Part shown: piece by piece, positions 22,206-47,910 of the stretch
How the letters are laid out: each line of letters opens with the position of its first letter
How positions within the stretch are numbered: the first letter of the stretch is position 1
Assembly: GCA_026392455.1 (NCBI GenBank)
Contig: JAPLCB010000004.1
Span: forward strand, 434,001 to 498,000
Length of the DNA: 64,000 nt
Direction: 5' to 3'
Origin: Propionibacteriales bacterium
Lineage (GTDB): Bacteria; Actinomycetota; Actinomycetes; Propionibacteriales; Nocardioidaceae
Notes under the pieces: model-generated
Told to the model about the DNA's origin: nothing
The model's database searches: none
The model's input: the letters and a program-made list of their open reading frames with translations, nothing else
Made by a program: the position numbers and the translations under genes

Positions 22206-23090
22206 CTAGCCCCGGGCGAGCGCGTGGCGCAGCAGTCCCTGCGCCGCCGACGGGTTCCGGGCACCCAGGGCCGACGGGACCAGTGCCGCGGCGTGCAACC
22301 GCGAGGTCAGGTGCCGGCGCGCAGCGCGTTCGGCCCGCACCAGTCCGGCAGAGCCGAGCTCGTCGGCGATGGTCCGGAAGTAGTGGCGCTCCTCGGCGAA
22401 GCGCTCCCCGGTCAGCGTCTTGACGGCGGAGTCGCTCCCGGTGTGGCGTCGGTACTGGAACGCGACCTCCGGGGAGAGCGCCATCCGGCCGCCTCCCTTG
22501 AGCACGTCCATCAGCAGCCCGAGGTCCTGGACGACGTGGAAGTCGGGGCGGAAGCCGATCTTCTCGATCACGTCGCGACGCCAGCAGAGGCTGGGGAAGT
22601 AGGTCCAGTTGCCGCGGAGCAGCGAGACCATCAGGGACTCTCCGCAGAGCTCGGTCGGACCGGCGGCGCTCGGGGTGAGGCGGTTCTTGACCCGGTCGAC
22701 GAGGGGACGGATCACCTGGTTGTCGCCGTCGATGATCTCGACACCGGTCTCGATGATCGCGACCCCGGGGAACGCCGCTACCGCTGCTTCCACGTCTGCC
22801 AGGAAGCGGGGCAGCATCAGGTCGTCGGCGCCCATCACCACCACGTACTCGGCGGTCGCCAGGCCGAGGGCGCGCATGTAGTTGAGGTTGGCTCCGAGGT
22901 TCGCCTCGTTGCGGTGGTAGTCGATCCGCGGGTCCCCGAGACCGGCGAACCAGGTGGCGATGCCCGGGTCGGGGTAGCCGTCGTCGACGACGATCAGCCG
23001 CCAGTCCGACGACGTCTGGGCGCGGACGCTCGCCACCGTCTGGCGGAGCAGGTCGGGGTCGCCGTAGAACGGCAGCAGTACCTCGATCAT
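22206..23090 (-). CDS. Glycosyltransferase family 2
   Basis: MIEVLLPFYGDPDLLRQTVASVRAQTSSDWRLIVVDDGYPD...NLGANLNYMRALGLATAEYVVVMGADD. Confidence 0.93.
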   Translation of the reverse strand: MIEVLLPFYGDPDLLRQTVASVRAQTSSDWRLIVVDDGYPDPGIATWFAGLGDPRIDYHRNEANLGANLNYMRALGLATAEYVVVMGADDLMLPRFLADVEAAVAAFPGVAIIETGVEIIDGDNQVIRPLVDRVKNRLTPSAAGPTELCGESLMVSLLRGNWTYFPSLCWRRDVIEKIGFRPDFHVVQDLGLLMDVLKGGGRMALSPEVAFQYRRHTGSDSAVKTLTGERFAEERHYFRTIADELGSAGLVRAERAARRHLTSRLHAAALVPSALGARNPSAAQGLLRHALARG

Positions 23091-24607
23091 CGTGCGGCTC
23101 CTTCGGTGGCAGAGGCGATCGGGACCGGTGCCCCGATCCGGGGCGTCCGCTCGTGCTCGAGGACAGCCCTGACCCAGAAGGTGGCGGCGAGGCCGCCGAG
23201 GGTGATGATCAGGGCCGCACTGGGGGGCACCCAGTGGGTGTCGGTGACGAGCTGGAAGTTGCTGCGCTGCTTGGTCATCACCGACCACTGGCTGATCAGC
23301 TGGGCGAGCACCACCGCCACGACGGCACCGACACCAAGCGCCCGACTGCGGTGCGACCGGGTCCCGGAGGCATCGAGCAGGGCCCCCGCCACGACGATCA
23401 GACCGACGGTGAACGGCATTCCGTAGCGCCCCTGCCAGGCTGAACCGAGCTGGTGGAAGGTGTGCACCGTCAGGTAGGTCGGAACGGCGAACGAGACCAG
23501 GGCGATGACGCCGAGTCCGAGCGCCGGGCGTGAGCGCAGACCGCAGCGTCGTACAGCGGTCACGACGAGTGCGACCAGCACGACGACGACCAGCGCGTAC
23601 GCCGCGGGCGGGGCAGCCTCGTTGCGCATCGGGAACGCACCGATCGCCTGCAGCGGCCAGAGGAACGCGCCCTGGGCGACGTACTCCCACGGGTTGCCGG
23701 AGAAGTTCGAGCGGTCGAGGGTCGGGTTGTTGACTCCGGAGAGCAGCACCCAGGCGATCTCGAACGCGGAGGCAGCGGTGACCAGGCCGGTGCACGCGGC
23801 CTCGAGCCGGGTCGTCGGCAGCAGGGCCCGGACGGTCCGGACAGGACCGTGCAGTACTGCGGTCGCGCCGAGGATCAGGCCGAGCCAGAGCAGCCCGAGG
23901 GTGTGCGTGCTGACCAGGACCGCGGCGAACGTGGCCAGCATCCAGTACGCCGTGCGCCGCCGCTGGTCGCCGCGCGGCTGGACCACCGCGCCCAGAGCGA
24001 CCCAGGTCCCGAGGCCGGCGAGCATCTCGACACCGTTGGGCGAGGCGATCGCCGACGAGTAGACCGTCGTCGGCAGGGCGGCGACCAGCAGCGCGACCAA
24101 GGGCCACACGGTCCGAGCCCCGGCGATGGTCAGCCGGACCGCCATCGCGAACAGCAGGCAGCCGATCAGAGCAGCCGCGACCCGCATCGCGTAGAGGTTC
24201 GCTGTTCCGCTGAACGGCCGTGCGGGAATGCCGACGGCGGCGTAGAACGTGGGGTTGTAGCGCGACGCTGCACTGGCGATCAGGATCTCGCCGCCGGGGA
24301 GCTCGGTCATCGGTCGGCAGTTGTAGACCCCGGTGTACGGACGCGCGGTGCAGGCCGCCCGGGCGGCCTCGGCGACGTCGGCACGGACCGGGATCAGGTC
24401 GCCGCGACCGAGCTCGGTCGGGATGGTCTGGTCTCCGGGTTCCCAGTTCCCGGCCGCCACCGAGCTGGCCCGGTAGGCGTGGTCGAACTCGTCGATCCCG
24501 AAGTGCGGAGCGATGCACAGGATCCAGCCGAGCTGGAGGACGAAGAACCCGGCGCCCGCCAGCAGGGTGCTGCGCCAACGCGGCGGGAGGGAACCGCGGG
24601 GCCTCAT
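23087..24607 (-). CDS. DUF2142 multi-pass membrane protein (GT-C-like)
   Basis: About 10 TM segments; HFGIDEFDHAYRA near N-terminus, PTTVYSSAIASPNGVEMLA; ATGA overlap with neighbours. Confidence 0.8.
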   Translation of the reverse strand: MRPRGSLPPRWRSTLLAGAGFFVLQLGWILCIAPHFGIDEFDHAYRASSVAAGNWEPGDQTIPTELGRGDLIPVRADVAEAARAACTARPYTGVYNCRPMTELPGGEILIASAASRYNPTFYAAVGIPARPFSGTANLYAMRVAAALIGCLLFAMAVRLTIAGARTVWPLVALLVAALPTTVYSSAIASPNGVEMLAGLGTWVALGAVVQPRGDQRRRTAYWMLATFAAVLVSTHTLGLLWLGLILGATAVLHGPVRTVRALLPTTRLEAACTGLVTAASAFEIAWVLLSGVNNPTLDRSNFSGNPWEYVAQGAFLWPLQAIGAFPMRNEAAPPAAYALVVVVLVALVVTAVRRCGLRSRPALGLGVIALVSFAVPTYLTVHTFHQLGSAWQGRYGMPFTVGLIVVAGALLDASGTRSHRSRALGVGAVVAVVLAQLISQWSVMTKQRSNFQLVTDTHWVPPSAALIITLGGLAATFWVRAVLEHERTPRIGAPVPIASATEGAAR

Positions 24608-24939
24608 CGGAGCTGGTCGGCGGACTCGCGCAGGGCGAGCTCGCGGGTCAGCGTCACCAGGTGGCGTTCGACCTGGTGCAAGCGCTGGTAGCACGCCAGG
24701 GTGGTGAACAGGAATGTCATCACGAAGGTGTAGAGCAGCAGGTCGGTCCCGCGCTGGACGCCGACGAGGTGGGCGGCCCAGACCGTGGTGCCGGGGAACG
24801 CGACCGCGACCACGCCGACCGGGACCAGCACCAGCAGCGCGATCCGCCGGATCGCCTGGTGGCTCGCCGGCTGCCGTTCGCGCAGGGTGAGGAACCCGAA
24901 CGCCAGGGTGCCGCCGATGAGCAGGATCTTGATCAGCAT
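24604..24939 (-). CDS. DUF2304 domain membrane protein
   Basis: MLIKILLIGGTLAFGFLTLRERQ...GTDLLLYTFVMTFLFTTLACYQRLHQVERHLVTLTRELALRES. Confidence 0.88.
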   Translation of the reverse strand: MLIKILLIGGTLAFGFLTLRERQPASHQAIRRIALLVLVPVGVVAVAFPGTTVWAAHLVGVQRGTDLLLYTFVMTFLFTTLACYQRLHQVERHLVTLTRELALRESADQLR

Positions 24940-25637
24940 CAGATCGCCCGCATCCGGCGTACGGCCAGGTCGAACAGGATGTTCACGGCGTTGATGTTGG
25001 ACTGTCCCTTGCCGCGTGAGTACTCGGTGTAGTTCACGGTCGTGGGCACCTCGACGTAGGTCAGTCCGTTGGGGACGATCGCGGAGAGGAATTCGCTGGC
25101 GTAGGCCATGCGCGGCATCGTCAGCCGGATCCGGGTGAGCGCGTTCCGGTTGAGCACCCGCAGGCCGTTGTGGGTGTCGGTCACCTCGAGCTTGGCGGTC
25201 CACTGGGTGAACCGGATGCCAGCCTTCAGGACGATCCGGCGCGCTGTCGGCATCGCCGTGCTGGTGCCGGTGAACCGGGAGGCGAGCACGACGTCGCTCT
25301 GGGTCTCGCGGGCGGTCCGGATCATCCGCTCGGCATCCTCGACCACGTGCTGGCCGTCGGCGTCGAAGGTGACGACCAGGGCTGCGTCGGTGTGCCGCAG
25401 GACGTAGTCGAAGCCCGTCTGCAAGGCTGCCCCCTGCCCCTGGTTGACGGCGTGCCGGAGAACGGTGGCGCCGGCTGCTCGGGCGATCTCGCCACAACCG
25501 TCGCTGCTGCCGTCGTCGACGCAGACGATCCGGTTGAAGCTGCCGCGGAGCGCAGTGATGACCGCCGCGACCGTGCTGGCTTCGTTGTACATCGCCACGA
25601 TGACGCAAACGTCGTCGTTCGCCTCGTGTACCGACAT
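24939..25637 (-). CDS. Glycosyltransferase family 2 (dolichyl-phosphate mannosyltransferase-like)
   Basis: CVIVAMYNEASTVAAVITAL, VCVDDGSSDGCGEIARAAGATVLRHAVNQGQGAALQTGFDY, VVTFDADGQHV. Confidence 0.92.
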   Translation of the reverse strand: MSVHEANDDVCVIVAMYNEASTVAAVITALRGSFNRIVCVDDGSSDGCGEIARAAGATVLRHAVNQGQGAALQTGFDYVLRHTDAALVVTFDADGQHVVEDAERMIRTARETQSDVVLASRFTGTSTAMPTARRIVLKAGIRFTQWTAKLEVTDTHNGLRVLNRNALTRIRLTMPRMAYASEFLSAIVPNGLTYVEVPTTVNYTEYSRGKGQSNINAVNILFDLAVRRMRAI

Positions 25638-25762: not shown

Positions 25763-25778
25763 TAGTCATTTGTGACTA
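25763..25778. promoter_or_regulatory. Putative operator, dyad TAGTC-N6-GACTA
   Basis: tagtcatttgtgacta, inside perfect 20-nt hairpin/palindrome cctagtca-tttg-tgactagg; same motif at 33286 and 42391. Confidence 0.55.
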
Positions 25779-32475: not shown

Positions 32476-32688
32476 TCAACCGCAGGATGCGGTCGAGTCG
32501 TAGGTCCCGGCGGTGCCGCTGCTGACCTTGCCGCAGGTCTTGCTGAAGGTGTCCTTGATGACGCCGCCGAAGACGAACACGATGGCGACGATCAGGGCGG
32601 CGATGCCGGCGACCAGGAGGCCGTACTCGACGGCGGACGCGCCGTCCTCGTCACGTCGGCTGGTGATGGTGCGGAAGAAGTTGAGCAT
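32476..32688 (-). CDS. flp: Flp family type IVb pilin (copy 1)
   Basis: 70 aa; RDEDGASAVEYGLLVAGIAALIVAIVFVFG, class III signal peptide + TM. Confidence 0.93.
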   Translation of the reverse strand: MLNFFRTITSRRDEDGASAVEYGLLVAGIAALIVAIVFVFGGVIKDTFSKTCGKVSSGTAGTYDSTASCG

Positions 32689-32716: not shown

Positions 32717-32929
32717 TCAGCCGCAGGACGCGGTCGAGCTGTAGGAACCGGCGGTGCCGCTGCTGACCTTGCCGCAGGTCTTGCTGAAGGTGTCCTTGAT
32801 GACGCCGCCGAAGACGAACACGATGGCGACGATCAGGGCGGCGATGCCGGCGACCAGCAGGCCGTACTCGACGGCGGACGCGCCGTCCTCGTCACGTCGG
32901 CTGGTGATGGTGCGGAAGAACTCGAGCAT
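32717..32929 (-). CDS. flp: Flp family type IVb pilin (copy 2)
   Basis: 70 aa; nearly identical to copy 1 at DNA and protein level. Confidence 0.93.
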   Translation of the reverse strand: MLEFFRTITSRRDEDGASAVEYGLLVAGIAALIVAIVFVFGGVIKDTFSKTCGKVSSGTAGSYSSTASCG

Positions 32930-32965: not shown

Positions 32966-33178
32966 TCAGCCGCAGCTGGCGGTAGAGCTGTACGAGCCGG
33001 CGGTGCCGCTGCTGACCTTGCCGCAGGTCTTGCTGAAGACGTCCTTGATGACGCCGCCGAAGACGAACACGATGGCGACGATCAGGGCGGCGATGCCAGC
33101 GACCAGCAGGCCGTACTCGACGGCGGACGCACCGTCTTCGTCCCGCCGGCTGGTGATCTTGCGCATGAACTCAAGCAT
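32966..33178 (-). CDS. flp: Flp family type IVb pilin (copy 3)
   Basis: MLEFMRKITSRRDEDGASAVEYGLL...; ORF extends to 33235 but MLEF start matches paralogues. Confidence 0.92.
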   Translation of the reverse strand: MLEFMRKITSRRDEDGASAVEYGLLVAGIAALIVAIVFVFGGVIKDVFSKTCGKVSSGTAGSYSSTASCG

Positions 33179-33285
33179 TGGGTTTCCCTTCCCCTTTGTG
33201 ACGCCGGGCCCCGATGCAACCCGGCGATGTGTCAACTATGTCACTTTGATGACGAATAGGGAGGATATGTCCGGTTTGAGTAGAG

Positions 33286-33301
33286 TAGTCACTTCGGACT
33301 A
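33286..33301. promoter_or_regulatory. Putative operator, dyad TAGTC-N6-GACTA, upstream of flp cluster
   Basis: tagtcacttcggacta; shared with 25763 and 42391. Confidence 0.6.
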
Positions 33302-33376: not shown

Positions 33377-34018
33377 CTACTGCGGCGGCGGGCTGGCGTC
33401 GATCAGACCCATCCGCATGGCCGAGACGAGCGCTTGGGCCCGGTTGCCCGCGCCCAGCTTCTCGTAGACCTTCGCGATGTGGGTCTTCGCAGTCGACTCG
33501 CTGATGTACAGGTTCGCGGCGATGGTCGCGACCCCGAGGCCGTCGGCGAGCAGATCGAGAACCTGGCGTTCCCGGTCGGAGAGCCGAGGGGTCGACGAGG
33601 ACAGGCGTCGCATCATCGCCTCGGGAAGTCCGGCGCAGGTGAAGCTCCGTGGAGCGACGGCTGCGTGCCGCGCTGCGGCGATGACCTCGCCGCTGGGGGA
33701 GTCCTTGCCGACGAAGGCGGAGGCGCCCGCGTCCATCGCGGCGAAGATCTGCTCGTCGCCGGCGTACATCGTGAGAACCACCAGGCCGAGGTCGTTGCGT
33801 TCCTTGCGCAGGGAGCGCACCAGGTCCAGGCCAGAGCCGTCGGGAAGACGGAGGTCGACCACGGCGACGTCGGGCTGCAGGGTGGAGATCATCGTCTGGG
33901 CGTCGGCGATCGTGGCGGCCTCGCCGACGACGGTGAACCCGGCCTCGCGGGCGAAGGCCATCGCCAGGCCGTGCCGGATGAGCTCGTGATCGTCGACCAG
34001 CAGTACGGACGTGCTCAC
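33377..34018 (-). CDS. LuxR/NarL family response regulator
   Basis: VLLVDDHELIRHGLAMAF, VAVVDLRLPDGSGLDLV, HTH LSDREREVLDLLADGLGVATIAANLYISESTAKTHI-type. Confidence 0.94.
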   Translation of the reverse strand: MSTSVLLVDDHELIRHGLAMAFAREAGFTVVGEAATIADAQTMISTLQPDVAVVDLRLPDGSGLDLVRSLRKERNDLGLVVLTMYAGDEQIFAAMDAGASAFVGKDSPSGEVIAAARHAAVAPRSFTCAGLPEAMMRRLSSSTPRLSDRERQVLDLLADGLGVATIAANLYISESTAKTHIAKVYEKLGAGNRAQALVSAMRMGLIDASPPPQ

Positions 34019-34100: not shown

Positions 34101-35603
34101 TCAGGCGAGACGGACCGAGACGCGTGTTCCACGTCCTTCGGCCACCGGGGTGTCGACACTGACGACCGCGCCGATCCGCTCGGCACGTTCGTTCATGATC
34201 CGGAGCCCGTGGGAGTCCTCGCGGGGGACCTGCAGGCCGGTGCCGTCGTCGGTCACCTCGATCTCGGCGTACGGCGGTTGCACCCGGCAACGCACCCACA
34301 GGTTGCTACCCCCGGAGTGCCGGCGGGCATTGTTGATCGCCTCCTGGGCGATCCGGAGAAGCTCCGCCTCCACCAGGGGACGCAGGCGTACCGACGACTC
34401 GTCCAGGGTGACGTGCACGGTCAGCTCGGAGTGCGAACCGATGTGGCGGGCGAAGAGGGCGATGCTCTCGCCGAGGCCCTGCCCGGGTGCGGTCTCGTTG
34501 CGCAGGTCGAAGACGGAGTTCCGCAGCTCGCCCACCACCCGGGTGACCTCCTTGCGCAGCAGCGCCACGTCAGCTGCCTGCCCGGGGTCGGTCGTCGACG
34601 CGGCCAAGTTGTCCACCAGGTACCCCAGGGAGGCGACGTCCTGCGCCACGCCGTCGTGCACCTCCCTCGCCAGTCGCCGTCGTTCCTCGGCGGTCGCGGT
34701 CTCGTGCACGCTGGTGAACAGCAAGGCAGCGCTGAGCTGGACCGCGGAGGAGCGCAACCGCTCGATGATCCGGGCGATCGCCGGCTCGTCGGGGGTGGCC
34801 GGGCAGTCGACCAGGACGACGGCGACGCGTTCGGACGACGTCGACATCGGGAGCGCGACCAGCTGCTCGCCGTAGACCGGCCGCTGGTGGTCCCAGCACT
34901 CGCGCAGCAAGGGGGTCACCTCGTCGAGCGGGAACGGTACCGACCCGGTCGAGTAGCGCAGCGGCGTGAACCCCGGGCCCTGGTGCAGGACCACAACTGC
35001 CTGGCGTACGACGACCTCCTCGGAGACCACGGCCAGCGCCTGGTCGGCGAGGTCGACCGGATCGAGGCCCGAGGTGAGCTGCCCGGAGAGCGACTGGAGC
35101 TGACGGATCAGGCCCAGGGCGCTCCGGTAGGAGTCGTCGGAGGAAGGGGTGGTGATGCTGCGCCGGGTGAAGGTGCCGAGCAGGCCCAGACCGAGGCCGG
35201 TGGTCAACCAGGTGAGTGCGGCACCGGCGACGTCGGAGTCGATGCTCCCGGGGAGCAACCACGAGGTCAGGCCCATCACGACGGCCTCGACGACCAGGAC
35301 GGCGACGATCCACCGGAGCCCGGCCGCGATCCCGCCGATCAGGACCGGGATCGCAAGGTACGGCATCGCCGCCTGGTGGTCGGGGTAGGCCCAGATCGCG
35401 ACGACGCTGGTGACGGCGCCTTCGGCCAGGACGATGAAGCGGTCAGGGACGCGTCGGCTCAGGGAGCCGAGCTCGGCGACCGCCGCGATCGCGGTCACGT
35501 ACCAGAGCCCGTCCACCCCGACGTCGCCGACCAGGGCGGTCGAGGCGATCACGGCCAGCGTGAAGACCCGGGCCGCAGCCGCTACGCGCAGGAGGTCGGT
35601 CAC
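34101..35603 (-). CDS. NarL-type sensor histidine kinase (HisKA_3) with N-terminal TM region and GAF-like domain
   Basis: RRRLAREVHDGVAQDVASLGYLVDNLA (HisKA_3), EAINNARRHSGGSNLWV, DDGTGLQVP..HGLRIMNERAERIGA. Confidence 0.93.
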   Translation of the reverse strand: MTDLLRVAAAARVFTLAVIASTALVGDVGVDGLWYVTAIAAVAELGSLSRRVPDRFIVLAEGAVTSVVAIWAYPDHQAAMPYLAIPVLIGGIAAGLRWIVAVLVVEAVVMGLTSWLLPGSIDSDVAGAALTWLTTGLGLGLLGTFTRRSITTPSSDDSYRSALGLIRQLQSLSGQLTSGLDPVDLADQALAVVSEEVVVRQAVVVLHQGPGFTPLRYSTGSVPFPLDEVTPLLRECWDHQRPVYGEQLVALPMSTSSERVAVVLVDCPATPDEPAIARIIERLRSSAVQLSAALLFTSVHETATAEERRRLAREVHDGVAQDVASLGYLVDNLAASTTDPGQAADVALLRKEVTRVVGELRNSVFDLRNETAPGQGLGESIALFARHIGSHSELTVHVTLDESSVRLRPLVEAELLRIAQEAINNARRHSGGSNLWVRCRVQPPYAEIEVTDDGTGLQVPREDSHGLRIMNERAERIGAVVSVDTPVAEGRGTRVSVRLA

Positions 35604-35634: not shown

Positions 35635-36576
35635 TCACTCGACCGTGCCCGAGAAGCTGTCCATGATCGAGATGCCGGCCGGGCCGAGAACCGCGATGAA
35701 CAAGCACGGGAGGATGCAGAAGATCAGCGGGATCAGGATCTTGACCGGAACCTTCTGGGCCATCTCCTCGGCCCACTGACGCTTCTTCACCCGGATCTCC
35801 GACGACTGGACCCGGAGAACCTGGGCGATCGGGATGCCGAACGAATCAGCCTGGACCATGGCGCTCACGAACGAGCGCAGGTCCGGGAGGTTGGTCCGGT
35901 CCGCGAGCGAGCGCAGGGCATCGGTCCGGCCGCGCCCGATCTGCATCTCCTGCAGCATCCGGGCGAACTCCTCGGCGAGCGGGCCGTCGGTGTTGCGGGC
36001 GACCTGGGCGACGGCCGCGTCGAACCCGAGGCCGGACTCCACCGAGATGGTGAGCAGGTCGATGGCGTCCGGGAGCGCTCGCTGCAGCTGCTCGGCCCGG
36101 TTGTAGGCCTGTTGGTAGAGATACAGGTTGGGGGCCATGTAGCCGGCGACCGATGCTCCGACGACGAACAGGAGCGTCACCAGGAACGACAGCCCCATCA
36201 GCAGGGCCAGGATCAGGGAAACGGCGAGGGCGGCGAAGAATCCGACCACCTTGCCGGCGCTGACCCGGTCCGAGGTCCACCCGCGCGGGTTCCCGGCGAG
36301 CTCGAGCTTCTCGTGGATCCGGTCGTTCGCATCAGCCGGGGTGAGTCGTCGGCCGAGTCCCTGGGCCCGTGCCAGCAGGGGGAGCAGGACCCGGTCGCCG
36401 AACGGAGCGTCGATCTCGGCGGTCATCTCCTTCGGGGCGGAGGTCAACGCCTCCAGCACCTCGATCGAGCGGTTCACGCCGAGGTCGTTGTGCGGCGCCA
36501 GGGCCAGCGTTGCGATCACGATCACCAGGGCGCCGAAGATCAGGGCGATCCCGATGAACATCATGGTCCCGCTCAT
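35635..36576 (-). CDS. tadC: Type II secretion system F / TadC family pilus assembly protein
   Basis: LPDAIDLLTISVESGLGFDAAVAQVARN...EEFARMLQEMQIGRGRTDALRSLADRT; terminal TMs. Confidence 0.93.
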   Translation of the reverse strand: MSGTMMFIGIALIFGALVIVIATLALAPHNDLGVNRSIEVLEALTSAPKEMTAEIDAPFGDRVLLPLLARAQGLGRRLTPADANDRIHEKLELAGNPRGWTSDRVSAGKVVGFFAALAVSLILALLMGLSFLVTLLFVVGASVAGYMAPNLYLYQQAYNRAEQLQRALPDAIDLLTISVESGLGFDAAVAQVARNTDGPLAEEFARMLQEMQIGRGRTDALRSLADRTNLPDLRSFVSAMVQADSFGIPIAQVLRVQSSEIRVKKRQWAEEMAQKVPVKILIPLIFCILPCLFIAVLGPAGISIMDSFSGTVE

Positions 36577-36577
36577 G

Positions 36578-38518
36578 TCAGACCTCCACCTTGGCAACTT
36601 TGGACATCCAGAAGATTCCGACGCCGAGCAGGATCCCCATCCCGGCGCACATCAGCCACCCGATCGGCGTGGTGTACATCGGCTTGACGTAGTCGGGCTT
36701 GCTCAGCGTCAGGTACAGCAGGAACGCCGGCGGCAGGCCGCCGAGGATCCAGCAGGAGAGCCGGCCTTCGGCGGACAGTGCCCGGACGTGACGGCGCAGG
36801 TACTCGCGTTCGCGCAGGGTGCTCGCCACCTGCAGCAGCAGCTCGGCGAGGTTGCCACCGACCTCGCGCTGGATCCGGATGGCCATCACGACCCACTTGA
36901 AGTCGCGGCTGCCCATCCGGTCGGCGACTCCCTCGAGAGCGTCCTCCAGAGGAACACCGAGCCTGCTCTCGACGATCGCCCGCTTGAACTCCGAGGTGAT
37001 CGGCTCCACCCCTTCGCGGACGATCGTGTCCATCGACTGTGCCAGGGACAGACCGGCCGAGAGACTGCCCGACATCAGCTGGAGGGTGTCTGCCAGACCG
37101 GAGCCGAAGGCCTTGAGCCGGTTGGCGCGCTTGACCCCGAGGTAGATCCAGGGGCCGACCGCGCCGATCAGGAAGAAGAAGATCACCGCGAACGGGTTCC
37201 CGCCGGTCACCAGGGCCCCGAGGAGACCGGCGGCGAAGGCGATCGCCACGTGCATCAGCAGCCACTCCGAGGACTTCAGCGCCATCCCGGCGCCCTCGAG
37301 GCGCAACGCGATCTTGTTCTCCACCTCCTCGTTCGAGGAGAGCACGTTGGCCGCTGCCTGGCGGGCCTGCTCAGCCAGGGAGTAGGTCATGTCCTGCTGC
37401 CCACGGATCTGGGCACGGATGGCTGCGGACCCGACGGGCTCGGTCGCCGTGTAGATCTCCATCTGGTCCGACAGCGGGACCTTCACCGCGGCGGGCTTGG
37501 TTCCCAGCGCCAGGTACAGGACACCGATGAGGCCGATCCCGATCGCGAACACCGCCCCGTACATCAGGGGCTGCGAGACCGACATCGCCCGCTCGACGCC
37601 AGGTGCGGACAGCGTGCTGGAGCTGGGTGCCGGGCTGCGAACGGTGAGGAACGCGGACGTGGTGTGGCTGGTGCCGCCCGCGTTGACCGTGACCTCGACG
37701 GTCGCGTCGTTGGCGGCGACCGATTCCGGTACCGACGCGGTCACCAGGACCTGGCGGGCCAGGGACCCGGCCTCGCTGCTGAAAGCCTTGGTCAGCGCGG
37801 CGGGGTCGGCCGCCGAGATGACCGCGCCGTCGCCGGCCTCGGCCATCTGGGTCAAGGGTGCCGGAGCCTGGGTGCCCTGCTCGAGGGAGACGACGTCGAC
37901 CTTGACCCCGGCGGACCGGATCGCAGCCACGACGGGCGCGAGGTCTGCCTTGGTGTTGTCCACGCCGTCCGACAGCACCAGGACCTGGCGCTGCCCGTCG
38001 GCCTTCCCGGTCGCTGCGATGGCGGTCCGGACACCTTCGTACAGGGCGGTGTTCAGGGTCAGGCTGAGGCCGTTGATGACGTCCTTGGAACGGTCCCGGT
38101 CCAGGCTGGGGGCCTGACGCACGACGACCTTGTCGTCGAAGGTGACGATGCCGACCTCGACGTTGGCCGGGACCATCTCCAGGTAGCTGAGGGCGGCCTT
38201 GCGGGCCTCGGCGATCCGCCGTCCCGCCATGCTGTTGCTGGTGTCGATGGCCAGCACGGTGGTACGCCGCACCTTGTCGCTCGAGGCAGCCAGCTCGGCG
38301 GTCGCCTCAGCGTCCTTGCCGCCGATGCGTACCGCGACGGAGCCGAGATCGATCGAGTCGGTGCTGTCGACCGAGACCAGCAGCCGCACGGTTCCGTCGG
38401 CCTGCTCGGAGTGGTCGATCGTCGCGTCTCCGGCCGCGTACCCGGCTCCGGCAGGAAGCAGGACGCCGAGGGCGACCGCAGCTGCCGCGGCGAGGATCCG
38501 CGCAGCCCGGGGCCTCAC
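36578..38518 (-). CDS. tadB: Fusion of secreted VWA domain with TadB (T2SS F family)
   Basis: Signal peptide; VWA MIDAS VLAIDTSNSMAGRR, VLVLSDGVDNT; C-term TadB LMSGSLSAGLSLAQSMDTIVREG...EVGGNLAELLLQVASTLRERE. Confidence 0.92.
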   Translation of the reverse strand: MRPRAARILAAAAAVALGVLLPAGAGYAAGDATIDHSEQADGTVRLLVSVDSTDSIDLGSVAVRIGGKDAEATAELAASSDKVRRTTVLAIDTSNSMAGRRIAEARKAALSYLEMVPANVEVGIVTFDDKVVVRQAPSLDRDRSKDVINGLSLTLNTALYEGVRTAIAATGKADGQRQVLVLSDGVDNTKADLAPVVAAIRSAGVKVDVVSLEQGTQAPAPLTQMAEAGDGAVISAADPAALTKAFSSEAGSLARQVLVTASVPESVAANDATVEVTVNAGGTSHTTSAFLTVRSPAPSSSTLSAPGVERAMSVSQPLMYGAVFAIGIGLIGVLYLALGTKPAAVKVPLSDQMEIYTATEPVGSAAIRAQIRGQQDMTYSLAEQARQAAANVLSSNEEVENKIALRLEGAGMALKSSEWLLMHVAIAFAAGLLGALVTGGNPFAVIFFFLIGAVGPWIYLGVKRANRLKAFGSGLADTLQLMSGSLSAGLSLAQSMDTIVREGVEPITSEFKRAIVESRLGVPLEDALEGVADRMGSRDFKWVVMAIRIQREVGGNLAELLLQVASTLREREYLRRHVRALSAEGRLSCWILGGLPPAFLLYLTLSKPDYVKPMYTTPIGWLMCAGMGILLGVGIFWMSKVAKVEV

Positions 38519-40221
38519 GACGACTCCGGGACGAACGTGCGGGCGTCTACCGTCACGTTGGCGTGAGCCATCTTCTCCAGGAACTTGGGTCGCAGGCCGG
38601 TCGCCTTCAGCGAGCCCAGGCTGCGGCCGTCCGCGTCGAAGCCGGCGGTGTTGTCGAACAGGAAGATGTCCTGCAGCGTGATCACGTCCCCCTCCATCCG
38701 CTCGACCTCGGTGACGTGGGTGATCCGGCGGGTGCCGTCCTTGAGACGGGCCTGGTGCACGATCACGTCCACCGCCGAGGCGACCTGCTCGCGGATCGCC
38801 CGCATCGGCAGGTCCATGCCGGCCATCAGGACCAGCGTCTCCAGGCGGGCCAGGGTGTCGCGCGGGCCGTTGGAGTGGACGGTGCAGATCGAGCCGTCGT
38901 GGCCGGTGTTCATCGCCTGCAGCATGTCCAGCGCCGAAGCGTCCCGGACCTCCCCGACGACGATCCGGTCCGGCCGCATCCGGAGCGAGTTGCGGACCAG
39001 GTCGCGGATGCTGACCTCGCCCTTGCCCTCGATGTTCGCCGGCCGTGACTCCAGCCGGACGACGTGGTCCTGCTTGAGCTGGAGCTCGGCCGCGTCCTCG
39101 ATCGTCACGATCCGCTCGTCGTCCGGGATGAACGAGGAGAGCACGTTGAGGGTCGTCGTCTTCCCGGCGCCGGTACCGCCCGAGACGACGACGTTGAGCC
39201 GACCGCGTACGCAGGCGTCCAGGAAGTCGGCCGTCTTGCGGGACATCGAGCCGAACTCGATCAGGTTCTCGACGGTCAACGGGTCGGTCGAGAACTTCCG
39301 GATGGTCAGCGTGCTGCCGTCGATGGCCAACGGTGGAACCACGGCGTTGACCCGGCTGCCGTCGGGCAGACGGGCGTCGACCATCGGGGAGGCCTCGTCG
39401 ACCCGACGACCGATCCGGGAGACGATCTTGTCGATGGTCCGGCGCAGGTGGGCCTCGTCGTTGAACTTGCCGTCGACGCGGACCAGCTTGCCGCTGCGCT
39501 CCAGCCAGATGTCGTACGGCCCGTTGACCATCACCTCGGCGACGCTCTCGTCGCGGAGGTACGGCTCGATCGGCCCGTAGCCGAGGATGTCGTCGGCGAT
39601 CTCCTGGGTGATCCGCTGCCGGTCGTTCGCGGTCAGCGGCCGCTCGCTCGCGGCCATCACGTCGGCCAGCGCCTGACGGACCATCGCCTCGAGCTCGGTG
39701 GCGGAGAGGTTCGCGTCGTACAGCTTGGGGCCGAGCTGGACCAGGAGCTCCTCGTGGACGCTGCCCTTCAGATCGTCGAAACGGTCCTTGACCGGTCCCC
39801 GCTTGGTCGCTGCGGACCCCAGGGTCACCCCGTTGCCTGACGTGCTGCCTGACGTGCTGCCCGACGTGCTGGCCGATGCGCTCGGCGCCGTGCTGATTGG
39901 CGGGGGGTTCACTGCAGCCGGGGCCGGGGCCGGAGCCGGGGCCGGGGGAGCAGCGCTGGTGTCGCGGTGAGCACCGCCGGCCACGTGCGCCGGTGCTGCG
40001 CGGACCACGGGAGCTGCTGTGCCCGAGTGCGCCGGGGTCGAAGCTCGGGGTGGGCGAGCAGCGGCCGGCCGCGATGCTGCCGGTGCGCCTGCGCCTGCGG
40101 GTGCCGCGGGTGCCGCCGGTGCCGTTGATGTTGCCGGTGTTGCCGGTGCCGGTTCGGCGGCCTTCGGGCTCGCCACCGACGTGCCGAGCAGTTCTGCCAA
40201 CCGGTCTGAAAATTCGCTCAT
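38515..40221 (-). CDS. cpaF: CpaF/TadA family secretion ATPase with Ala/Pro-rich N-terminal extension
   Basis: VVSGGTGAGKTTTLNVLSSFIPDDERIVTIEDAAELQL, LRMRPDRIVVGEVRDASALDMLQAMNTGHDGSICTVHSNGPRD. Confidence 0.95.
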   Translation of the reverse strand: MSEFSDRLAELLGTSVASPKAAEPAPATPATSTAPAAPAAPAGAGAPAASRPAAARPPRASTPAHSGTAAPVVRAAPAHVAGGAHRDTSAAPPAPAPAPAPAAVNPPPISTAPSASASTSGSTSGSTSGNGVTLGSAATKRGPVKDRFDDLKGSVHEELLVQLGPKLYDANLSATELEAMVRQALADVMAASERPLTANDRQRITQEIADDILGYGPIEPYLRDESVAEVMVNGPYDIWLERSGKLVRVDGKFNDEAHLRRTIDKIVSRIGRRVDEASPMVDARLPDGSRVNAVVPPLAIDGSTLTIRKFSTDPLTVENLIEFGSMSRKTADFLDACVRGRLNVVVSGGTGAGKTTTLNVLSSFIPDDERIVTIEDAAELQLKQDHVVRLESRPANIEGKGEVSIRDLVRNSLRMRPDRIVVGEVRDASALDMLQAMNTGHDGSICTVHSNGPRDTLARLETLVLMAGMDLPMRAIREQVASAVDVIVHQARLKDGTRRITHVTEVERMEGDVITLQDIFLFDNTAGFDADGRSLGSLKATGLRPKFLEKMAHANVTVDARTFVPESS

Positions 40222-40256: not shown

Positions 40257-41450
40257 TTACTTCCGGAGCCGGCTGAAGACGCCGCGCTTGGCGGGTTCCT
40301 CGGCATGGGCGTCCGGACGGGTTCCCGACGAGGTGCGGGCCGCACCGGCGGGTCGAAGTTGGTCAGCCAGCCCGATCAGCGCCTTGCTCACCGGGTGGTC
40401 CGGCTGGCTCAGCACGATCGGTCGCCCGTTGTTGGTCGCGGTCGCAACCGCGAGCGCGGTGGGCAGCGCGGTGGCCACCTTCATCTTCAGCAGGCCTTCG
40501 ACGACCTGGCAGGTGAGACCGACCTCGTCGTCGGCCCGGTTCAGGAGCAGGTGCCGCTGGCTCTGCACCACGCCGAGGTTGTCGAGGGTCTCGACCGCCA
40601 CCTTGACGTTCTTCACCGTGGGCACGTCGAGCGTTGCGATCAGGATGCACTCGTCGGTCTCCTCGAAGGCCGCGAGGACGTGGTCGTCGAACGCCGGAGT
40701 GGTGTCGACGACGATGTAGTCGAACTGCTCGCGCAGGATCTGCAGGACCCGGCGCACGAAGCTGGGCGAGATCCTGGCCTTGGCTTCGGGGTGCGTCGGT
40801 GCAGCCAGGATGGAGAGGTGTTCGTGGCGGGTCATCAGGGTCTCGAGCAGGCTGAAGTCCAGGTGCTCCTCGGCCTCCACGGCCTCCACGATGGTGTGGT
40901 CCGGGATCACCTGGAGCGTGATCGCGACGTCGCCGAAGGCCAGGTCGAGGTCGACCAGGCAGACCTTCGAGGTGCCGCGGTTGCTCAGGGCGATCGCCAG
41001 GTTGACCGCGACGGTGGTCTTGCCGACCCCGCCCTTGGGGGAGAAGACCGTGATCACCTTGCCGTCGCGCACGCCGCCGTGGCCGACCGGTCCCCGGATG
41101 GCTTCCCAGGTCTGACGGCTTCGGTCGACGGCGGCGGTGATGCCGTCCAGGTCGTCTGCCCGGGTGACTGCCGTCGCACCGACCTGCATCGCGGACTGGA
41201 ACACGTCCGAGGTCGGATCGGTACGGACGATCACCACCCCGACTGCGGGGTGGGTGGCACGCAGGCTCTCTCCGATCGCGAGCGCGGTGTCGAGATCGGT
41301 GCTCGGTCCGAGCAGAGCGACGTACTCGTTGCTCTGCTCGGTGAGCCAGGTGTCGAGCTGACCGGCGTTGGAAACCACCTGGGTTCCTGCCGGCAGGGCG
41401 ACGGTCAGTGCGCTGGCCCAGTTGGTGTCGGGCTCGACGAGGACGGGCAT
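40257..41450 (-). CDS. cpaE: CpaE-like MinD/ParA-family ATPase
   Basis: Pseudo-receiver N-terminus; KVITVFSPKGGVGKTTVAVNLAIAL; ATG at 41450 in longer ORF. Confidence 0.92.
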   Translation of the reverse strand: MPVLVEPDTNWASALTVALPAGTQVVSNAGQLDTWLTEQSNEYVALLGPSTDLDTALAIGESLRATHPAVGVVIVRTDPTSDVFQSAMQVGATAVTRADDLDGITAAVDRSRQTWEAIRGPVGHGGVRDGKVITVFSPKGGVGKTTVAVNLAIALSNRGTSKVCLVDLDLAFGDVAITLQVIPDHTIVEAVEAEEHLDFSLLETLMTRHEHLSILAAPTHPEAKARISPSFVRRVLQILREQFDYIVVDTTPAFDDHVLAAFEETDECILIATLDVPTVKNVKVAVETLDNLGVVQSQRHLLLNRADDEVGLTCQVVEGLLKMKVATALPTALAVATATNNGRPIVLSQPDHPVSKALIGLADQLRPAGAARTSSGTRPDAHAEEPAKRGVFSRLRK

Positions 41451-41475
41451 GGTGCGACCTTTCGGGAGGAGTCGG

Positions 41476-42195
41476 TCACTTCGTGAACAAGTTCTTGCCG
41501 TCAACGACAACGTTCTTGTTGACGACGGAGTCCTTGTTGGTGAGGCCGAACGAGAGCTCGCTGGCGGTGGCGGCAGCAATGACTCGCTGGGCGTCTTCCT
41601 GCAGCAGACCCAGGGTGAAGAGGGTGCGCGGCAGCTGTTCGGTCGTCTGGGCCCCGGTGGCGTCCGTGGTGGTCGTGGACACCACCGTGGTGGTACCGAC
41701 TGCGATCACCTCGACGTTGGTCAGCAGGGTCGCGGTAGCGCCGTTGCCGGTAGCGAAGATCACGACCTTGTCGCCCGGGTTCACGAAGCCGGCGACCCGG
41801 CCGGTGTCCGTCAGGTTGACCGAGATCGCGATCATCTTCTTCGGGATGGTCAGGGTGCTGGTCGAGGCGGGAGCGACTGCGAACTTGACGCCGACGATCT
41901 GCTCACCCGGGTTGATCGTGGTCTGGGCGATCTGGGTGCTGATCGCATCCAGGGAGACCAGCGCGTCGGGGAGCCGGTCGCCCTCACCGACCATGCTCTG
42001 CTCGATCTTGCCCGCTGCCTGGGCGTCGGCGACGCTCTCGCCGGCGTTGATGACCTTCACCGCCTTCAGGACCGGAACGGCGTTGTACTGGTCGGCTGCG
42101 CGTGTGTCGGCGCCGCGTACGTACAGGAAGACGATCAGCGTGCCCAGCCCCGCGATCACCGCGGCAACCGTCAGAAGCACTTTCCTGCGATCCAT
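41476..42195 (-). CDS. cpaB: CpaB/RcpC (SAF domain) Flp pilus assembly protein
   Basis: N-term TM, VLKAVKVINAGESVADAQAAGKIE, ISVNLTDTGRVAGFVNPGDKVVIFAT. Confidence 0.92.
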   Translation of the reverse strand: MDRRKVLLTVAAVIAGLGTLIVFLYVRGADTRAADQYNAVPVLKAVKVINAGESVADAQAAGKIEQSMVGEGDRLPDALVSLDAISTQIAQTTINPGEQIVGVKFAVAPASTSTLTIPKKMIAISVNLTDTGRVAGFVNPGDKVVIFATGNGATATLLTNVEVIAVGTTTVVSTTTTDATGAQTTEQLPRTLFTLGLLQEDAQRVIAAATASELSFGLTNKDSVVNKNVVVDGKNLFTK

Positions 42196-42390: not shown

Positions 42391-42406
42391 TAGTCACAAA
42401 GGACTA
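42391..42406. promoter_or_regulatory. Putative operator, dyad TAGTC-N6-GACTA, upstream of cpaB operon
   Basis: tagtcacaaaggacta in extended arm ggGTAGTC..GACTACtc. Confidence 0.58.
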
Positions 42407-47355: not shown

Positions 47356-47460
47356 GGTCCGCAGCCGGAGAACTAGTCCTTTCGGGGCATTTAGTATCAA
47401 AAGTCCGTTTCGGGACGTTTTCTTGTTACGCTTGCTCTGTCCCAGGGAGGGGGCGGAGCG

Positions 47461-47910
47461 ATGTCACACGGACGTGTGAAACACCGCCGCACCGACGAGC
47501 GTGGTGCGGCTGCACTGGAGTTTGCCCTGATCGTGCCGATCCTGATCGCGCTGGTCTTCGGGATCGCCGACTTCGGGTGGGCGATCAACCGCGACACGAT
47601 GGTCAACAACGCGGCCCGCGAAGGCGCCCGCGAGGGCTCGCTGAACCCGGATGCGACCGCGATCGCCACCACGGTGCGCGAGAGCCTCGCCCAGGTCGAG
47701 GCCATCGGCACCACGCCGTCGAAGATCACGGTGACGGTCACCTGCCGCAAGCCCGACAACTCGGCGTGCGCGTCCTTCGCCACCGACGCGGTGTCGGGAG
47801 GCACCGTCATCGTCACCGTCGCCCTCGACCACTCCTGGATCACCCCGGTCGGCAGCACCTTCGGGAGCGGCATCGTCCTGCGCAAGACGGTCGAGATGAG
47901 AATCGAATGA
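47461..47910 (+). CDS. tadE: TadE family pilus/pseudopilin protein
   Basis: RTDERGAAALEFALIVPILIALVFGIADFGWAINRDTMVNNAAREGARE. Confidence 0.92.
   Translation: MSHGRVKHRRTDERGAAALEFALIVPILIALVFGIADFGWAINRDTMVNNAAREGAREGSLNPDATAIATTVRESLAQVEAIGTTPSKITVTVTCRKPDNSACASFATDAVSGGTVIVTVALDHSWITPVGSTFGSGIVLRKTVEMRIE

Follow-up and report, generated by a model that had tools for sequence, protein, structure and literature searches.

A conserved 16-bp dyad before Tad/Flp pilus and other surface genes of Nocardioidaceae, very probably an operator of NarL type

The described systems closest to the one considered here are governed by response regulators (RRs) of the NarL type. NarL itself activates from −44.5, −67.5, and −77.5 (PMC7419079), and an engineered site for this regulator is TACCCCTAAAGGGGTA (PMC4549865). 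In Streptomyces venezuelae, the orphan NarL-type RR BldM, with the group I site TCACcCgnncGgGTGA, activates whiB and other developmental genes (PMC4125116). PprB of Pseudomonas, another NarL-type RR, is encoded in the flp-rcp-tad locus and activates flp together with other adhesins (PMC3510237); the recognition sequence of PprAB is given as GGCTAATAC (PMC6821963). For Tad/Flp pili in Nocardioidaceae, no described regulator or operator was found in the literature searched, nor was a described operator of the type TAGTC-N6-GACTA found there.

Within the window, by which is meant the whole 64,000-nt stretch of DNA that was analyzed (G+C computed as 68.8%, about 70% having been assumed earlier), TAGTC-N6-GACTA occurs exactly at three places, given without strand: 25763–25778 (dyad 1, TAGTCATTTGTGACTA), 33286–33301 (dyad 2, TAGTCACTTCGGACTA), and 42391–42406 (dyad 3, TAGTCACAAAGGACTA). 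The original prediction had named just these three copies, and allowing one mismatch adds no further match in the window, the expectation for a shuffled window being 0.44 matches at up to one mismatch. The whole-genome scan proposed at the time returned the same three exact copies from 3.55 Mb and none scattered elsewhere; a reversed control pattern has 2 exact matches in that genome, and the probability of three randomly placed genomic sites clustering in so short a span is about 7e-5. As had also been claimed, all three copies are intergenic; downstream of each is an operon on the minus strand. The observation of the dyad is confirmed as real, and it is stronger than first stated.

The genes behind the three copies, all on the minus strand, were assigned by Pfam except where indicated. 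Dyad 1 stands upstream of a GT2-DUF2304-DUF2142-GT2 cassette (GT2, DUF2304, and DUF2142 by Pfam), its center 133 bp from the start codon (25637) of the first gene, a GT2 glycosyltransferase (24939–25637); the DUF2142 membrane protein is encoded at 23087–24694. Behind dyad 2, where Pfam finds Flp, three pilin genes follow in tandem, flp3 (32966–33178; Flp_Fap, 4e-12), flp2 (32717–32929), and flp1 (32476–32688), the latter two recognized by tblastn with flp3, and the dyad center is 115 bp from the flp3 start at 33178. Dyad 3, centered 203 bp from the cpaB start at 42195, precedes cpaB (41476–42195; RcpC, 1.3e-16), a cpaE-like ATPase gene (40257–41579; ParA/AAA_31, start codon unrefined), the cpaF ATPase gene (38515–40221; T2SSE, 5.6e-66), a tadB-like gene (36578–38518), tadC (35635–36597; T2SSF), a histidine kinase (HK) gene (34101–35603; HisKA_3 and HATPase_c), and the gene of a NarL/LuxR-type RR, here called A (33377–34018; Response_reg and GerE). 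From this gene order it follows that the HK and RR genes end the cpaB operon and that dyad 2 lies between the RR gene and flp3. In the TadB-like protein, a VWA domain is fused to a T2SSF domain. A degenerate fourth copy with one half intact (TAGTCCTTTCGGGGCA, 47374–47389, plus strand) lies 80 bp before the TadE gene, which begins at 47461 on the plus strand.

The extent to which the flp dyad has been retained can be read from the RR-to-flp intergenic regions of Nocardioidaceae, of which 64 were collected and 63 remained after removal of a duplicate; orthologues of A are present in 198 of 299 genomes of the family. In an unbiased de novo enumeration of all dyads in these regions, TAGTC-N6-GACTA ranks first (31/64), the next unrelated dyad being found in 6/64 and shuffles giving at most 2. 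Checked in relatives, as had been proposed, the dyad is kept upstream of orthologous flp genes family-wide, exactly in 30 of the 63 regions, with up to one mismatch in 45, and with up to two in 52, where permuted half-sites average 0, 0.2, and 3, respectively. Its center falls about 110–170 bp before flp. In an alignment anchored on the dyad, a further block of conserved sequence stands out between +26 and +40, best kept at +38 to +40 and typically GGCCGATcacCCGAT. As this block stands at a fixed distance and reads as a promoter region, the flp dyad would be placed near −40, upstream of a promoter-like sequence. In register with the block, a putative −10-like hexamer, TATCCT, is situated 18 bp downstream of dyad 2 (33262–33267, minus strand); in most species the block contains no canonical TANNNT. 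A sigma-28 promoter was considered as an explanation, with a −10 of the type GCCGATAA sought: CCGAT often occupies +36 to +40 downstream of the flp dyad and is absent at the window's own flp, and a FliA/WhiG gene is present in G000. Likeness to such a −10 is confined to part of the family and is not decisive.

Conservation extends to the cpaB and GT-cassette sites, for the most part within the genus. Most near relatives there keep the dyad upstream of orthologous cpaB, a further point that had been put up for checking, at about 203–209 bp from the start and often as TAGTC...GGGCTA, with a downstream block of its own analogous to the flp block; in the wider family, the dyad precedes cpaB in some species only. 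The GT-cassette dyad is kept in G005, G010, G013, G017, G018, and G020, and in G231 (L392) tadE has a full dyad before it.

Another source of evidence is the wider set of loci marked by the dyad. A generalized form, TAGYCMNNNNKGRCTA, occurs at five places in the genome and at none for the reversed control. One extra copy, hairpin-like, lies between rpsO and pnp (C5:289970), and another, kept in relatives, lies between ahpE and tRNA-Val (G000:C3:307629, L026). In the ahpE region (L026 of G000; L044, L052, L065, and L069), the dyad falls at the ahpE stop codon and is followed, on the way to tRNA-Val(tac), by a sigma-70-like promoter, TTGCAT-17-AAGATT, and then by a conserved GC hairpin with a T-run. 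Rfam recognizes no RNA family in this region apart from the tRNA, and the element is possibly a small RNA or an attenuator. Additional dyads in relatives are mostly intergenic. The commonest, conserved across Nocardioidaceae, is found between a divergent WhiB-family gene and the gene of a PASTA-domain penicillin-binding protein (PBP), a pair that presumably recalls whiB4-ponA2 and wblA. Dyads also precede fliA and flgN in G009 and G014, flgB in G107, genes of CAP-domain proteins in G028 and G116, and an acyltransferase gene in G264. In G215 (L411), a histidine kinase and a response regulator are encoded as a pair 86 bp behind a dyad, possibly a self-regulated system; in G064 (L408), one stands before the gene of a secreted 175-aa protein that has no Pfam hit and whose N-terminus we take to resemble TasA/CalY-type matrix proteins. 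Of the original claim of a pilus/surface regulon, the operator-like behavior stands, with conservation at flp, cpaB, and the GT cassette; the regulon is wider than had been seen.

The 51 flp and 47 whiB-PBP sites together give the consensus TAGYCM-N4-KGRCTA, that is, two inverted 7-bp elements 2 bp apart, which is the 7-2-7 layout of NarL/FixJ-type operators and bears out the initial guess of a LuxR/NarL-family dyad. Very probably, the dyad is a conserved NarL-type operator through which Nocardioidaceae control their Tad/Flp pili along with other surface genes. Such a 16-bp operator of the NarL/FixJ (LuxR-HTH) type, written by half-sites as TAGYCMN-NN-NKGRCTA, would be bound by a dimeric NarL-family regulator near −40 at flp and probably at cpaB, and the bound regulator would act as transcriptional activator of the pilin and assembly operons. 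One regulator would serve a family-wide regulon that takes in the whiB-PBP intergenic region, tadE, secreted and wall-linked proteins, the glycosyltransferase cassette, and, in certain species, the flagellar genes fliA/flgN and flgB. With one regulator and many surface targets, it is proposed that pili and other surface structures are switched jointly. Most likely, this regulator would be a conserved RR of the NarL type whose gene lies outside the tad locus; the best candidate is a protein here called B. The joint reading, a NarL-type operator of a family-wide surface regulon in which pili are activated by a regulator from outside the tad locus, with B as best candidate, is judged probable.

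B is an orphan NarL-type RR (G000:C8:12631-13278, L317) encoded immediately downstream of an hpf-like gene; 286 of the 299 genomes of the family have kept it. Among 30 genomes compared, which are not phylogenetically independent, the whiB-PBP dyad is present in 28/28 with B and 0/2 without (Fisher p 0.002, phylogeny ignored); a second Fisher test gave p ~0.0015 from B-positive counts of 30 and 3 (31 and 3 on recount), with no tree correction and non-negligible background matches. Genomes lacking B mostly lack the generalized dyad too, even where A is present, as in G239, G221, G034, G044, and G026, the last negative for B at 1e-55 with a marginal hit at 1.8e-51. The match is imperfect, in that G236, B-less at E ≤ 1e-50, keeps the whiB-PBP dyad, and the fragmented 130-contig genome G272 has no B hit and six dyads. 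As a lead rather than a result, B appears the better-supported regulator candidate than the tad-encoded A. Autoregulation of B was rejected, as a dyad-like sequence upstream of B occurs in few genomes only (G019 and, weakly, G050), and none is present there in G000.

The exceptions G236 and G272 speak for a different possibility, that a conserved regulator other than A and B uses the operator; it might be a further NarL-type RR or a protein resembling TetR/GntR whose site is a 16-bp palindrome. G000 encodes 11 NarL-type RRs, and those sampled were the ones near A in sequence. Weighing against this, B tracks the whiB-PBP dyad across the 30 genomes and the half-site degeneracy matches the NarL heptamer; a regulator of this other kind is conceivable rather than probable.

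Improbable, on present evidence, is that the dyad serves as the operator of A, within a PprAB-like two-component system dedicated to the pilus and controlling its own expression. A had originally been taken as the natural regulator. Both it and the HK are encoded within the tad operon, a placement that is conserved; through the cpaB dyad, A would control its own expression, and PprB provides the precedent of a NarL-type RR of a flp-rcp-tad locus activating flp and adhesins (PMC3510237). However, with up to two mismatches to the generalized form, the whiB-PBP dyad is found not only in 30/30 A-positive genomes but also in about 14 of 18 A-negative ones, and the flp dyad is present in G041 and G058, whose tad loci carry no A homologue, none having been detected within ~10 kb. 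Therefore A alone cannot explain the motif, and its role as sole, dedicated regulator is rejected; moreover, A is present and the flp dyad missing in G236, G239, and G044. The tad-encoded RR may share or modulate the sites. Hardly credible, finally, is an RNA hairpin, a terminator, or a chance palindrome, for although a stem of 5–6 bp with a 4–6-nt loop could form and the rpsO-pnp copy is hairpin-like, the flp dyad has no T-run and lies upstream of the putative promoter, conservation family-wide and at unrelated loci excludes chance, and the letter at position 6 does not follow that at position 11 (C/A, unpaired as RNA, in 23 of 51 sites), so that the half-sites, varying without keeping pairing, are read as DNA.

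The NarL-type operator looks like the docking site of a regulator switching surface structures on together, because the dyad is kept in place in most relatives and is found as well at the gene of a redox regulator and at other cell-surface genes; as a family-wide operator of surface structures, it would apparently be new to the literature. The analysis provides a precise operator and target list for Tad/Flp pili in Nocardioidaceae, ties pili to a WhiB-family gene adjoining a PBP gene, and names two regulator candidates, A and B. A broader proposal, tentative and somewhat doubtful, is a Nocardioidaceae master regulon, read by the orphan NarL-type RR beside hpf, that would couple growth state to the WhiB-family redox regulator and surface structures. 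If true, surface structures such as Tad pili, flagella, and glycans would be chosen with growth state.

Among known systems, DevR, from the DosR/DevR system of Mycobacterium tuberculosis, is the closest solved relative of A; the half-site of its box, GGGACT, is similar to that of the dyad, but would be oriented the opposite way about the dyad axis. From NarL the dyad differs in its half-site, NKGRCTA as against AKRRGTA, and in its proposed regulon, which would comprise surface structures rather than nitrate respiration. Like E. coli NarL 7-2-7 operators, it has 16 bp, an outer TA, and an inner G/C pair (PMC7419079, PMC4549865), with K and R as degenerate letters at corresponding positions; of the 16 positions of the engineered NarL site TACCCCTAAAGGGGTA, 11 agree with TAGTCCGAAAGGACTA. 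With the BldM group I site it shares a 16-bp palindrome and the core CgnncG; the targets differ, and at the outer half-site positions, where BldM has its mark TCAC, the consensus of flp and whiB-PBP sites has TAGT. In Pseudomonas aeruginosa PprAB, as here, the genes of a NarL-type RR and an HK lie inside the tad locus, and the PprAB regulon, in which one RR of the NarL/LuxR type controls Flp/Tad pili jointly with other adhesins, is that to which the dyad set, compiled from sequence comparisons, is likened (PMC3510237). Unlike the operator of PprAB, the dyad is not tied to an RR of its own locus, and it persists without a tad-encoded RR, at whiB-PBP and at flp, in genomes and loci that lack A.
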